Source of the DNA: an uncultured Polaribacter sp.
Lineage (GTDB): Bacteria; Bacteroidota; Bacteroidia; Flavobacteriales; Flavobacteriaceae
Direction of reading: 5' to 3'
NCBI RefSeq assembly: GCF_947495205.1
Contig: NZ_CANLXV010000007.1
Location: forward strand, 1-64,000
DNA length: 64,000 nucleotides
Part shown: piece by piece, positions 8,554-14,404 of the stretch
Layout of the letters: every line of letters begins with the position of its first letter
Numbering within the stretch: position 1 is the first letter of the stretch
Translations under genes and position numbers: made by a program
The notes under the pieces: generated by a model
What the model was told of the DNA's origin: nothing
The model's database searches: none
What the model saw: only the letters and a program-made list of their open reading frames with translations

Positions 8554-9027
8554 TTACTCCAGTTCAATTTTAATAGGCAATTGATATTTTGATTTTACTG
8601 GAATTCCTCTTTTTATCGCTGGAAAAATAGCAGGAATTTTAGCAATACTGTTTTGTAAAACACTATCTAAACTGGGTAAATTTTTCTTTATTTTTTCGTT
8701 TGATGTAATTTGTTGTAACTCAATTTTACCATCTGTATTAATAATTAAATCTACATAAACCGTTTCTGAGATAGACTCTTTAAGCGTAAACTGATGTTTC
8801 TGTATCTCCTCTCCTATTTTTAAGTGAATTGTAGTTCTAAAACAATCGGCTTTTTTTTGTTTGGTAATTAAAGAATCGCAATTTTTAAAAGACGGAAACG
8901 TATCTACAGAAGAAAAATCTACAATAGTATCTAAAACAGGTAGATTTTTATTTTTAGAGAACGAAAAATAATCACACGAAGTGAAAAAAATCATTAAAAA
9001 CAAAAAAGTTAAAACCCGTAAAAACAT
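8554..9027 (-). CDS. TonB-C-terminal-like lipoprotein
   Basis: This 157-residue protein starts with a lipoprotein signal (FLFLMIFFTSC, lipid-modified Cys at 18). The second half (from about residue 80) has the pattern of the TonB C-terminal fold: VYVDLIINTDGKIELQQI, then a helix with paired Leu/Ile, then PVKSKYQLPIKIELE. The same fold sits at the end of the M56 protein two genes upstream, so both may act on the same partner. It is the last gene of the minus-strand cassette blaI, blaR1-like, TPR, lipoprotein, 42 bases after the TPR gene. Function unknown; the TonB-like call rests on pattern only. Confidence 0.75.
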   Translation of the reverse strand: MFLRVLTFLFLMIFFTSCDYFSFSKNKNLPVLDTIVDFSSVDTFPSFKNCDSLITKQKKADCFRTTIHLKIGEEIQKHQFTLKESISETVYVDLIINTDGKIELQQITSNEKIKKNLPSLDSVLQNSIAKIPAIFPAIKRGIPVKSKYQLPIKIELE

Positions 9028-9069: not shown

Positions 9070-10323
9070 CTATTCTAAACTTTCTCCTTTAATAAAATAG
9101 GCCTTTTTTATGGCTACAATTCGACTTTCTACAAAATCAGACATTTCCTTATCTCTTCTAAAAAACCGACTTTTAAATTTTTTATACAAATCATAAGCTA
9201 TTTTTTTATCTTTATAGTAGTCTTCAGAAAGTTTTGCTTGCTGAAAAAGCGCTTTGTAATTCTGGGCGTTTTCATCAAAAGCTTTTTTAAAATAATTAAT
9301 AGCACTTTTTGGTTTTTCTTGCTCATAAAACATAGTTGCCAAACCATAATAAGCGTTGTCTCTAGGCTCTTTACCTACTTTTGCTGCTCTAAGATAATGA
9401 AACATTGCCATTCTGTAATCTTTTTCTTTTAAAGCAATATTTCCTAAATAAGTAAACGCTTTAAAATCTTCTGCATCTATTTTTACTACATTTTTAAAAC
9501 GGTCTTTTGCATTTTTATAATCTTCTAATTGGTAATAAGATTTCCCTAACATATTATTAGTAAAATGCTCCATTTTTTCTAAACTATCTAACCTTAACAA
9601 CACAGGTATGGTTGCTTTAAACTTTTTTTCGCTGTAAAGTTGGTTTGCTTTTATGCGATTTAAACTAATATGATTTTCATCTAAACGCAAACCTTTATTT
9701 ATAAACAAATAGGTAGAATCTTTATCTCTTAAAGCAAAATACTGAATGGCGAGTTTTGTAATTGCTTTTAAATGTGTGCTATCTTTTTCTAGAACATCTA
9801 AAAAACAATTCATCATTCTATTGCCGTCATTTACAAAACTATAAGCCAAACCTAATTGGTAAGAATAATGCGGATTTAAAGTATCTTTAGTTGTTAAATC
9901 TTTAAATAACGAAATGGCATTTTCACTTTTTCTATTTTGTAAGTACAATTTCCCAAGTTGATATTTCAACACCAAATTCATAGAATCTTTTGCCAATAAA
10001 TCTTCATAAATTTTTATAGATTTATTGGGTTTAAAAAGCCTTAAATACGCTTTTGCTAGTTTTAAACTTGCTTTTTTATGTTCTTTAAATTCCAATGCTT
10101 TTTCTAAAAAAGAAACTGTTTTTTTATAATTATCTATAGACTCATAAATAAGTGCTGTTTTGTAATTGCTTAAAAAAGAAGGCGGATTCATAGCCTCTAA
10201 TTTTTGCAATGCCAATTGATATCTTCCATTTTCGAACAAACTATCTATAGCAGCAAAAGCAGAAGTTTGTGCCTCTACTTTTACCACTACAAATAATACT
10301 ACAATTAAAACTTTCTTTTTCAT
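9070..10323 (-). CDS. Exported tetratricopeptide-repeat protein
   Basis: The 417-residue protein has a signal peptide (KKKVLIVVLFVVVKVEA, cut near residue 18) and is otherwise a chain of TPR helices, with repeated patterns such as YQLGKLYLQNRKSENAISLF and AYYGLATMFYEQEKPKSAINYF across about residues 35-400. TPR chains in the periplasm usually serve as protein docking surfaces. Its ATG shares one base with the TAA of the upstream M56 gene (TAATG), so the two are probably translationally coupled and made in fixed ratio. This ties its role to the M56 sensor, but its ligand is unknown. Confidence 0.85.
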   Translation of the reverse strand: MKKKVLIVVLFVVVKVEAQTSAFAAIDSLFENGRYQLALQKLEAMNPPSFLSNYKTALIYESIDNYKKTVSFLEKALEFKEHKKASLKLAKAYLRLFKPNKSIKIYEDLLAKDSMNLVLKYQLGKLYLQNRKSENAISLFKDLTTKDTLNPHYSYQLGLAYSFVNDGNRMMNCFLDVLEKDSTHLKAITKLAIQYFALRDKDSTYLFINKGLRLDENHISLNRIKANQLYSEKKFKATIPVLLRLDSLEKMEHFTNNMLGKSYYQLEDYKNAKDRFKNVVKIDAEDFKAFTYLGNIALKEKDYRMAMFHYLRAAKVGKEPRDNAYYGLATMFYEQEKPKSAINYFKKAFDENAQNYKALFQQAKLSEDYYKDKKIAYDLYKKFKSRFFRRDKEMSDFVESRIVAIKKAYFIKGESLE

Positions 10324-11885
10324 TAGTATTTATTCTTTCTTTTTTCAGGTACAAATATTGTAAATGGTATTGTATAAGAAACCTTAACTTTTTTGCCATC
10401 TTGCTCCCCTGGTTTCATCTTTGGTAAAAGTTGCATTACTCTTAAAACTTCTTTCTCTATTTTAGGATGTGGTCCTCTTGACTTTATATCAACTACGTTT
10501 CCTTTATTATTAATACTAAAAGCAATAAAAACTCTTTTTTTACCCGAACTTAAACCCAATGTTTCTCGTAAATCAGCATTGAAATTTCTAGCAAAATGCT
10601 TTTGTATCATTTTAGAAAAGCAAGTTTTATCTCCAATACCACAACCAGGGAAAGTTGGAGATTTCTCTATTTTAAGAAAACTTACACTTTTATCATCAGC
10701 TTTATTTTCACGAAATCTATATTCTGTTTTTACTGAAAATCCTTTTCTAATATGAACGCCAACAATTTTTCTTCCTTTATATTCATAAAATTTATACTCA
10801 TATGTTTTTAAACCTTCCTCTCCCCTTTGTTTTAATGTTAATTCTAAAAACTTATTAAACTCTTTTAATTCTTTTTTTGATAAATCCTGTTTGTTAATTT
10901 CTTTACCAATAGGTTTATGACTTTCTCCAGCTATATAATAATCTAAGTACGTTTTTTCTTGTCTTACTGTAAAATCATCGGTATTTGAAGTATAAATCTT
11001 TTGTAATTCTTTTTTAGAAGCTGAATTATTAAACACTTTTTGAGAACAAGAAGTATAAAAAAGCATGCTTGTTAATACAGGAATCAACACCAAATATTTT
11101 AGCTGATTCATTTTTTTAGATTTGTTTTTCGTCATCATAGTAATTCTTTTTTTAATGAATGTTTGTTTGTAAAACTGATTGATAAAAGCAATATTTTCTA
11201 CTTGAAAAAAGTTAGATAGCAATTGATTGATGTAGTTTTCTTTGGGTGAAGATTTTGTGGCAACTTCATCTGAAATATACTCGTGTATTAAAGTGATTCT
11301 TTTCTGATAAATAAAAATCATTGGATTAAACCACATTACAATTTTTAAAACCTCGAAAAACAATAAATCCAAAGAATGTTTTTGTTTACTGTGCACTAAT
11401 TCGTGCGCAATTATTTGTTCTTTTTGAGATTTTGGTATTTCTTTTCCTAAAAAAATATAATTGAAAAAAGAAAACGCTTTGGTTTGGTTTGGAATTAAAA
11501 CCAATGTGTAGTTCTCTATTTTAACAAGTCTATAAGTTCTTATTAAGTTGATAATTGCCAATAACTTAGAAACAAACAACACACTGAAAACAATAACACC
11601 AATACCAAAAAAAACATCGATATAATTTACAGATTGGTACCAGGAAGATGCTACAATTACCTTTTCAGGAAACAGCACCAATTCTGGTAAATTCACTATA
11701 TATTCTTGAGGCACTGCTTGTTGAAATGTAGGTATTTTAATTAAAGGAATTAAAAAAGACAATAATGGCGTAGATAATAAATACCATCTATTTTTTCTAA
11801 AAAAGGTTTCTTTGCTTAGAAAGAAATCATAAATAGCCAAGAATAACACTTGGAATAAAATTACCTGAATTATATAATTAATCAT
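10323..11885 (-). CDS. BlaR1/MecR1-like M56 membrane metallopeptidase with TonB-like C-terminus
   Basis: BlaR1-type proteins sense an outside signal and then cleave a BlaI-type repressor. Here the N-terminal 120 residues hold about four membrane helices, then the cytoplasmic zinc site HELVH at 161-165, with HEYISDE at 201-207 as the likely third-ligand region. A last helix (KYLVLIPVLTSMLFYTSC, about 265-283) leads outside. In place of the penicillin-binding sensor of BlaR1 there is a linker and a TonB C-terminal-like domain (about 425-515, VFIAFSINNKGNVVDIKS to YTIPFTIF). The gene lies 172 bases after blaI on the same strand and is coupled to the TPR gene. It is therefore a sensor protease for something other than beta-lactam, by inference. 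Confidence 0.87.
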   Translation of the reverse strand: MINYIIQVILFQVLFLAIYDFFLSKETFFRKNRWYLLSTPLLSFLIPLIKIPTFQQAVPQEYIVNLPELVLFPEKVIVASSWYQSVNYIDVFFGIGVIVFSVLFVSKLLAIINLIRTYRLVKIENYTLVLIPNQTKAFSFFNYIFLGKEIPKSQKEQIIAHELVHSKQKHSLDLLFFEVLKIVMWFNPMIFIYQKRITLIHEYISDEVATKSSPKENYINQLLSNFFQVENIAFINQFYKQTFIKKRITMMTKNKSKKMNQLKYLVLIPVLTSMLFYTSCSQKVFNNSASKKELQKIYTSNTDDFTVRQEKTYLDYYIAGESHKPIGKEINKQDLSKKELKEFNKFLELTLKQRGEEGLKTYEYKFYEYKGRKIVGVHIRKGFSVKTEYRFRENKADDKSVSFLKIEKSPTFPGCGIGDKTCFSKMIQKHFARNFNADLRETLGLSSGKKRVFIAFSINNKGNVVDIKSRGPHPKIEKEVLRVMQLLPKMKPGEQDGKKVKVSYTIPFTIFVPEKRKNKY

Positions 11886-12057: not shown

Positions 12058-12420
12058 TTACTTTTTCTTATGTACTTCTTTTAAAATACTTTCTAATTCA
12101 GAAATATCCATTTTATTTTCTTTTACAAAAAAGGAAACCATACTTTTAAAAGAACCATTAAAATAGCCATTCATTAATTTGTGTAAACTTTGGTTACTAT
12201 AGGTTTCTTTTTCTATAATTGGATAATATAAAAAACCTCTTCCTAAAGGTTTGTGATCTACAAATTCTTTGGTTTCTAAAATTCTAATAATGGTAGAAAC
12301 TGTATTATATGCTGGTTTGGGTTCAGGTAATTTTTCGATTACTTCTTTTACAGAAGCCTCTTGTAAATCCCACAAAACTTGCATAATCTGCTCTTCTGCT
12401 TTTGTTAATTGTTTATTCAT
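12058..12420 (-). CDS. BlaI/MecI/CopY-family transcriptional repressor
   Basis: The 120-residue protein is a winged-helix repressor. It begins with the family signature LTKAEEQIMQVLWDLQEASVKEVIEKL, followed by AYNTVSTIIRILETKEFVDHKPLGRGFLYYP (recognition helix and wing), and a C-terminal dimerisation helix region (about 75-120). BlaI proteins dimerise on dyad operators and are inactivated by cleavage by the partner M56 protease, which is encoded just downstream here. Its own promoter carries three AACTAA-N4-TTAGTT dyads, so it very probably represses itself and the cassette. ATG start about 25 bases after the predicted transcription start. Confidence 0.93.
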   Translation of the reverse strand: MNKQLTKAEEQIMQVLWDLQEASVKEVIEKLPEPKPAYNTVSTIIRILETKEFVDHKPLGRGFLYYPIIEKETYSNQSLHKLMNGYFNGSFKSMVSFFVKENKMDISELESILKEVHKKK

Positions 12421-12426
12421 ATTTAC

Positions 12427-12491
12427 AACTAAATTTTTAGTTTAACAATACAAATATAACTAAAAAATTAGTTTAAACTAATTTTTTAGTT
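12427..12491 (-). promoter_or_regulatory. blaI promoter with three dyad operators
   Basis: Three exact copies of AACTAA-N4-TTAGTT lie at 12427-12442, 12458-12473 and 12476-12491. The last two together form a perfect 34-bp palindrome (12458-12491). On the minus strand the -7 box TATATTTG occupies 12458-12451, between copies one and two and touching copy two, so the predicted start is near 12444. Dimers bound at copies two and three would cover the region upstream of the -7 box, and at copy one the start and early leader. This is not the TACAnnTGTA operator known for BlaI/MecI/CopY. Confidence 0.85.
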
Positions 12492-13425: not shown

Positions 13426-14404
13426 TAATAAAGCTTCTAGTACTAGTATTGTAGCTGATTTTTATGGCGTAAACCCAAGAAATCTACAAAGACAATACAG
13501 AGACTCTTTAAGTGATTTTAAATCATGGAATCAAAAAACACATGCTAAAGATTGGCTCTTATTCGCAAAAAATTTAGGAAGTAATTTATCTTTAGATGAA
13601 ACCGCTTTTTCTAATGGTGATTTATATACCATTTTAACCAATAAAAAAGCAAAAGGAAAAAAAGGGGCAATAATAGTAATGGTTAAAGGAACTAAAGCTG
13701 AAACCGTCGTAAAAATATTGCATAAAATCCCTTTAAAACAAAGAAAAAAAGTCAAAGAGGTTACTCTAGATATGGCTGGTAATATGGGGCTTATTGTAAG
13801 AAAATCATTCCCAAACGCAACTTTGGTTATAGACCGTTTTCATGTTCAGAAACTAGCCTTAGATGCATTACAAGAAATAAGAATAAAACATCGTTGGGAA
13901 GTAATAGATGCAGAAAATGATCTGATAGAAAACGCTAGAAGTAAAAACTTAAAATACAATCCAGAATTAATGCCAAATGGCGATACACTAAAACAATTAT
14001 TAGCTAGAAGCAGGTATTTACTCTACAAATCAAGCTCTAAATGGACTGATAATCAACAGCAAAGAGCAACAATATTATTTGAAAAATACCCTGATAGAGA
14101 AAAAGCATACAAATTATGCCAGAACCTTTCTTGGATATTTAATACTACAAAAGATAAAACTTCTGCGTTAATAAGATTCGCTAAATGGGACGAAAAAGTA
14201 AGACAAGCGGATTTTAAAAGTTTTAGAACCATAGCAAGAACTATGTCCATACATTATAAAAACATCCTCAATTATTTTGACAATAAAAGCACAAATGCCT
14301 CTGCGGAATCTTTTAATGCTAAGATTAAAGCTTTTAGAACGCAATTTAGAGGTGTGAGAAATATAGAATTCTTCCTGTTTAGATTAACAAATATTTTTGC
14401 CTAA
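13421..14404 (+). CDS. ISL3/ISAon1-like transposase, catalytic part
   Basis: An open frame of 327 codons carries the DDE catalytic core: Asp in LSLDET, Asp in VTLDMAGNM, Glu in SAESFNAKIK, with the ISL3-typical VIDRFHVQKLALDALQEIR between them. A helix-turn-helix-like segment (VADFYGVNPRNLQRQY) is near the N-terminus. The start is unclear: the frame is open from ATT 13421, just where the upstream frame ends, and the first ATG is at 13679, which would remove the first catalytic Asp. The start codon may have decayed, or the part may normally be reached by frameshifting. With the upstream part broken, transposition in cis is doubtful. Confidence 0.72.
   Translation: MSNKASSTSIVADFYGVNPRNLQRQYRDSLSDFKSWNQKTHAKDWLLFAKNLGSNLSLDETAFSNGDLYTILTNKKAKGKKGAIIVMVKGTKAETVVKILHKIPLKQRKKVKEVTLDMAGNMGLIVRKSFPNATLVIDRFHVQKLALDALQEIRIKHRWEVIDAENDLIENARSKNLKYNPELMPNGDTLKQLLARSRYLLYKSSSKWTDNQQQRATILFEKYPDREKAYKLCQNLSWIFNTTKDKTSALIRFAKWDEKVRQADFKSFRTIARTMSIHYKNILNYFDNKSTNASAESFNAKIKAFRTQFRGVRNIEFFLFRLTNIFA

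Follow-up and report, generated by a model that had tools for sequence, protein, structure and literature searches.

Paired AACTAA-N4-TTAGTT dyads at the blaI promoter of a Polaribacter as probable operators of a BlaI-M56 operon

In this study, we sought to determine why three closely spaced dyads of the form AACTAA-N4-TTAGTT stand at the promoter of a blaI gene in an uncultured Polaribacter, and which regulator would be expected to read them. The window, by which we mean the whole 64,000-nucleotide stretch of DNA analysed, carries these putative operators, none with a strand of its own, at 12476..12491 (dyad 1, distal, AACTAATTTTTTAGTT), 12458..12473 (dyad 2, middle, AACTAAAAAATTAGTT, 18 bp from dyad 1) and 12427..12442 (dyad 3, proximal, AACTAAATTTTTAGTT, 31 bp from dyad 2). 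All three are exact matches, and dyads 1 and 2, the tandem that proved to be conserved, together form a perfect 34-bp palindrome (12458-12491), as a sequence-only reading of this DNA had described; its word "identical" holds for the 12 specified bases but not for the N4 cores, which differ (ATTT, AAAA, TTTT). On the minus strand, the last base of the dyad pair is also the first T of TATATTTG (12451..12458, minus strand, read from the sequence), the one base common to dyad 2 and this box. Since TATATTTG fits TAnnTTTG, which we take to be the Bacteroidetes -7 consensus, the earlier description of dyads that overlap and flank a -7 box of blaI is borne out. From that consensus, we expect blaI transcription to start near 12446, which would place dyad 3 at the very beginning of the transcript, between the presumed start and the blaI ATG, from which it is separated by 6 bp. 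A transposase-like ORF (by eye) occupies 13679-14404, within the long interval that precedes blaI.

The gene next to the dyads (blaI, 12058..12420, minus strand) encodes a 120-aa repressor of the Penicillinase_R family (PF03965; E 2.7e-32, 112 bits against a cut-off of 22.6), the domain covering the whole protein, and it aligns to the MecI structures 1okr/1sax over residues 4-118. Starting 172 bp past blaI is a gene for an M56 (BlaR1-type) metallopeptidase with an HELVH motif and a C-terminal TonB_C domain (10323..11885, minus strand, PF05569 match). A TPR-repeat protein gene (9070..10323, minus strand) touches the end of the M56 gene and, from its position, probably belongs to the operon, to which a gene for a 157-aa probable lipoprotein (by eye; 8554..9027, minus strand, no family match) may possibly belong as well. 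Of 80 loci that carry a BlaI of the same class (class A, defined below) and have 1.3 kb of flank or more, 77 have an M56 homologue downstream in the same orientation, the exceptions being L025, L187 and L210, and a TPR homologue was present in 13 of 80, many flanks ending before its place. Pfam found Peptidase_M56 and TonB_C in the M56 partner and no penicillin-binding domain, so that beta-lactam sensing is not indicated; its score against blaR1_generic is 27 bits (cut-off 400). Staphylococcal repressors of the BlaI/MecI type are cleaved at Asn101-Phe102, according to two accounts (PMC3305447, PMC5341023). That position aligns to Phe97-Phe98 here, the Phe after the bond being kept and the Asn before it not, and proteolytic release of this BlaI is plausible.

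We propose that the three dyads are very probably operators at which dimers of the neighbouring BlaI repress their own blaI-M56 operon. The basis in hand is sequence, position, conservation, co-occurrence, and half-sites and spacing that are specific to the BlaI class; binding by BlaI, repression and inactivation through M56 are the predicted steps. On dyads 1 and 2, the dimers would sit side by side upstream of, and touching, the -7 box, where they would block RNA polymerase, and BlaI on dyad 3, just past the presumed transcription start, would add a roadblock to early elongation. When the M56 membrane protease senses its signal, BlaI would be inactivated and the operon would open.

Could the dyads be a chance feature of an A+T-rich promoter? 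The genome is indeed A+T-rich, and with the inner bases left free single dyads are hardly more frequent than in the control: AACTAn6TAGTT occurs eight times and the reversed pattern six times. Under the window's base composition with independent bases, chance would give about 1.9 exact dyads in a 3.14-Mb genome but a 65-bp cluster of three about 8e-10 times, and this estimate, together with conservation of the tandem in genomes of 123 of 235 genera (below), leaves the chance explanation hardly credible. The genome contains four exact AACTAA-N4-TTAGTT sites (reversed-pattern control, one). The whole-genome search that the sequence-only reading had suggested thus returned three of four sites at this promoter, but the fourth (C10:134163) lies in coding sequence, within a 329-aa ORF that reads by eye as aspartate-semialdehyde dehydrogenase. 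When up to two mismatches are allowed, the window has 10 matches, fewer than its shuffles (mean 19.4), and therefore only the exact cluster stands out. We also considered a wider regulon. The eight AACTAn6TAGTT sites comprise three at this promoter, one at the class-B blaI (below) and four elsewhere, and with eight sites against six for the reversed pattern a regulon beyond blaI promoters is unsupported.

Within the genus, the dyads follow the gene. A BlaI protein search of 58 genomes, the window's own included, gave matches in 42, and 40 of the 58 have an orthologue at 74% identity or above, our definition of class A in the genus. The tandem AACTAn6TAGTT-NN-AACTAn6TAGTT, with 18 bp from dyad to dyad, was found in 40 of 58 genomes (reversed control, zero), namely in 40/40 with a class-A orthologue and 0/18 without; the sets of 40 returned by the protein search and by the pattern search are identical. 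The corresponding figure, 1/C(58,18) = 2e-15, is not a true probability, because the genomes are related to one another and several of the 18 that lack the tandem are incomplete. An alternative is that the dyads bind another regulator and that their link to blaI is merely positional. Extra 18-bp tandems away from blaI, present in two of the 58 genomes, speak for it, and the absence of the tandem from all 18 genomes without class A speaks against it. The extra tandems lie at L211:1545-1578 and L212:126-159, in genomes that are 67% and 82% complete, and on the stretches examined no ORF of at least 60 aa starts just after either.

The tandem does not always adjoin blaI. It lies 286-1329 bp upstream in 8 of the 40 genus loci, and in seven of these eight an ORF of at least 156 aa stands in between; in the remaining one (L025, tandem at 286 bp) no intervening ORF of at least 50 aa was found. 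The intervening ORFs have 156-159 aa and begin like a lipoprotein (L021, L040, L043, L046, and also L217, outside the 40), or have 305-317 aa (L026, L029) or 413 aa (L035), and one example of each of these three types matched no Pfam family. Other genera have in this place an ORF that matches hydrolase families in Pfam (L197) or two ORFs that are M56-like by eye (L187). Standing ahead of intervening genes, the tandem looks like an operon front and not like a piece of blaI. We therefore rejected the notion that the lack of a dyad close to blaI refutes the finding, since eight of 40 loci have the tandem farther upstream, seven of them beyond an intervening ORF. As a separate observation, the ORFs between class-A tandem and blaI are varied, as though different genes could be taken up at the front of the cassette.

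The association extends through the family. We sampled 249 genomes from 235 genera, 195 of them with some BlaI match and 143 with class A, here a match at E 3.4e-40 or better. The strict 18-bp tandem occurs in 131/249 genomes and 123/235 genera, with a reversed control of zero in all 249; related genomes are not independent, and this applies to the genus and family counts alike. By BlaI content, it was present in 131/143 genomes with class A, in 0/52 with other BlaI only and in 0/54 with no BlaI. It is its absence from these last two groups, 52 of 52 and 54 of 54, that together with a shift of half-site and spacing with BlaI class (below) makes the other-regulator explanation improbable in our judgement. 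A looser search, with a gap of 1-6 bases, which does not separate the 18-bp tandem of class A from the 20-bp tandem of class B, gave 137/143, 30/52 and 0/54, respectively.

The exact 18-bp tandem is missing in 12 of the 143 class-A family genomes. We inspected seven of these, leaving out G120, G131, G133, G197 and G278: four loci have a degenerate tandem (L175, L176, L178, L179), one has a single dyad (L174), one has two dyads at another spacing (L209), and L177 has no dyad in the 95 bp inspected. We also examined a named set, the best 80 named relatives of the class-A protein, kept from 441, whose genomes are partly shared with the family sample and are led by Polaribacter and Tenacibaculum, followed by, for example, Salinimicrobium, Lutibacter, Christiangramia and Aquimarina. 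The tandem is present at 73 of these 80 best-matching loci and the exact 18-bp form is missing at seven; among these seven, the 110 bp inspected at three Salegentibacter loci (L340, L346, L348) contain no dyad. Among the 73 tandem-bearing loci, TATATTTG follows the tandem exactly in 53, and a third dyad stands 30-32 bp farther on in 37. Comparison of blaI promoters from related Flavobacteriaceae had been proposed with the sequence-only reading, non-conservation of the dyads being what would count against it; we found the dyads conserved before the orthologues.

Could the 34-bp palindrome instead form an RNA hairpin, an attenuator or terminator, and not a protein site? It is a perfect inverted repeat, but it is very A+T-rich and lies upstream of the -7 box, so that with this box in use the blaI transcript does not include it. 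The pattern of conservation also argues against a hairpin. We could align 73 of 84 class-A promoters on the tandem; the 2.0 bits at AACTA/TAGTT are a product of this selection and not evidence, but the inner base (position 6), left free by the alignment pattern, is A in 71/73 and 67/73, and it is this recurrence of AACTA/TAGTT with inner A in 73 aligned promoters that, with position and composition, makes a hairpin very improbable. Information in the same 73 promoters averages 1.50 bits per base in the -7 box and 1.21 bits at those N4 and gap bases that the pattern leaves free, against 0.46 bits upstream and 0.44 bits beyond the -7 box. In 63 of the 84 class-A promoters, a TAnnTTTG box begins at the final base of a dyad. 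Separately, we noted by eye a GACGA...TTTGTTACA block no more than about 45 bp upstream of the tandem in several class-A promoters of the genus (L012, L014, L016, L023 and others).

This genome has three BlaI genes, and the two co-resident with the window's blaI have dyads of their own that keep to the 16-bp frame. Ahead of the start of the second gene (L008, class B), AACTTAAAAAATAGTT, AACTATAAATTAAGTT and AACTACAAAAATAGTT follow one another every 20 bp; the third (L009, class C) carries TCTACGTTTGTAGA, which misses a TACAnnTGTA core by one base, plus a second dyad, TCTAn6TAGA. Downstream of this class-C blaI (C8:149971) stands a 366-aa ORF but no M56 homologue, the sole such case among 50 class-C loci with enough flank.

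To generalise, we collected 235 BlaI genes at the levels of genus, family and phylum and classed them by recognition-helix words only, 14 of them fitting no class. These derive from 242 loci searched for BlaI, of which two were removed as duplicates and five gave no match: L211 and L212, taken for extra tandems, and L245, L260 and L266, missed at E 1e-3. Repeats of the same places (L001-L007, L094-L124, L173) and L010 had been left out beforehand. The picker with which dyads were chosen keeps C3 and A5 constant and requires at least five of six paired positions; those bases are accordingly not evidence, and T4 is free. The half-sites are AACTAA in class A (n=84; 41 of the 84 come from the genus, and the counts are not independent), AACTA followed by T (0.57) or A (0.32) in B (n=36), [TC]TCTACA in C (n=63), [AGT]ACTAT in D (n=6), TACTAN in E (n=26) and TACGAA in F (n=6). 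Promoters with picked dyads, against the mean after shuffling, numbered 71/84 against 4.0 in class A, 31/36 against 1.6 in B, 62/63 against 3.4 in C, 6/6 against 0.5 in D, 22/26 against 1.0 in E, 6/6 against 0.1 in F and 6/14 against 0.9 among the unclassed. Inside blaI, the same picker found dyads in 18/84 (A), 5/36 (B), 12/63 (C), 0/6 (D), 0/26 (E) and 1/6 (F), and 500-750 bp downstream in 3/81 (A), 3/34 (B), 8/52 (C), 0/6 (D) and 4/21 (E); the 18/84 inside class-A blaI weighs against the operator reading. Enumeration with no bases fixed placed AACTAA at the top in class A (70/86, duplicates included) and TACGAA at the top in F (5/6). TACAnnTGTA occurs within 250 bp of 59/63 class-C genes and of 1/84 class-A genes (L046).

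Spacing differs between the classes as well. Neighbouring dyads in class A are most commonly 18 bp apart (61 pairs in 84 promoters, 20 bp in three), whereas those in class B are 20 bp apart only (21 pairs), and the -7 box is 2 bp farther from the dyad in class B (29/36) than in class A (63/84). A 20-bp tandem was found in 53 of 120 family genomes, with a control of zero: in 49/72 with class B (a match at E 1e-43 or better), in 4/4 with weaker or partial class-B-like matches and in 0/44 with neither. Genomes with class A only (18 of the 120) have the 18-bp tandem in 16 cases and the 20-bp tandem in none; those with class B only (24 of the 120) have the 18-bp tandem in none and the 20-bp tandem in 17. 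This comparison shows a double dissociation of tandem spacing.

How do these dyads relate to established operators of the repressor family? The sequence-only reading had noted the absence of TACAnnTGTA, and none is present in the window's blaI promoter. Its suggestion of a different recognition sequence holds in that respect only in part, since the 16-bp BlaI/MecI/CopY frame is kept and AACTA is allowed in it, while the inner CA is lost. Published sources give a 16-base CopY consensus, RNYKACANNYGTMRNY (PMC7253601), a mec/bla consensus quoted as [A/G]NATTACA[A/T]NTGTA[A/G][T/G]NT (PMC5341023) and, for B. licheniformis, three operators, OP1-3 (PMC3305447). When the class-A half-site is placed by hand in the consensus frame, with mec/bla halves merged, positions 1-5 are allowed and 6-7 depart; the half-site compositions by class give a 16-bp two-fold operator with a Y3 T4 A5 frame, C3 and A5 having been fixed by the picker. 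The class-A system resembles BlaI of S. aureus and B. licheniformis and MecI in its two-fold site, its half-site frame with compatible positions 2-5 and its pairing of repressor gene with M56 protease gene, and B. licheniformis also in having three operators. It differs from them in that the inner CA/TG becomes A-any/any-T, two operators adjoin at 18-bp spacing, and the M56 protein has TonB_C, with no penicillin-binding domain found by Pfam. With the CopY/CopR operator RNYKACANNYGTMRNY it shares the 16-bp frame, in which AACTA fits RNYKA, but positions 6-7 (CA) do not match, and this BlaI scores 52 bits against NCBIfam CopY_TcrY (cut-off 122).

A further comparison is with C. thermocellum, for which one account (PMC8457756) describes GACTAT (BlaI_1845) and GTCTAT (BlaI_0696) repeat motifs with EMSA support, the contrast for BlaI_0696 being modest, operators of two pairs of repeats for four protomers, shown by DAP-seq and EMSA, and regulons of three operons for BlaI_0696 and one for BlaI_1845. 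The statement that known BlaI operators contain TACAnnTGTA was therefore too strong. Both systems have CTA half-sites without TACA and pairs of inverted repeats, and the autoregulated blaI-blaR1 operon reported there has its counterpart in the autoregulation predicted here for blaI-M56. The outer and inner bases and the phylum differ, however; repeats are five nucleotides apart for BlaI_0696 and four here, and the C. thermocellum sites were shown by DAP-seq and EMSA, the class-A sites by comparison only. The class-A operator is a new spelling, non-TACA BlaI operators having already been published for C. thermocellum in that account (PMC8457756), and since those motifs already vary it is a further spelling in a family of varying spelling. 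We found no description of BlaI operators of Bacteroidota in the open-access literature, judged mostly by titles. A TACAnnTGTA-based search for BlaI targets would miss the class-A orthologue group, and probable operator sequences are now given for Flavobacteriaceae BlaI-M56 systems.

The idea that the inner base is dictated by the residues of the recognition helix alone did not hold as a strict rule: L276 has PAYNT with inner T or C, L209 combines PAYNT with a mixture of inner bases, inner A occurs without PAYNT in L251, L262 and L280, and the class-B inner base is mixed. Taken jointly, the comparisons may be read as Bacteroidota BlaI classes that share one 16-bp frame and differ in one or two half-site bases and in tandem spacing, which keep them separate, with a cassette front that accepts different genes; we consider this evenly balanced between true and false. 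The operator code would be AACTAA at 18 bp for A, AACTA(T/A) at 20 bp for B, TCTACA (the canonical core) for C, TACTAN for E and TACGAA for F, and if this reading is true, a simple recognition code (helix words PAYNT, PHYNT, PxTTxATLLKR, AYTTxMT, GYTTT) together with a spacing code would insulate co-resident paralogues in one cell. Such paralogues are a natural set for reading and testing BlaI recognition and spacing specificity. Two further groups share the 16-bp frame: TACTAn6TAGTA precedes 20 of 26 class-E genes (26 of loci L218-L261, e.g. L218, L225, L234), and TACGAAn4TTCGTA precedes five of six class-F genes (L254, L264, L269, L272, L275, L281).
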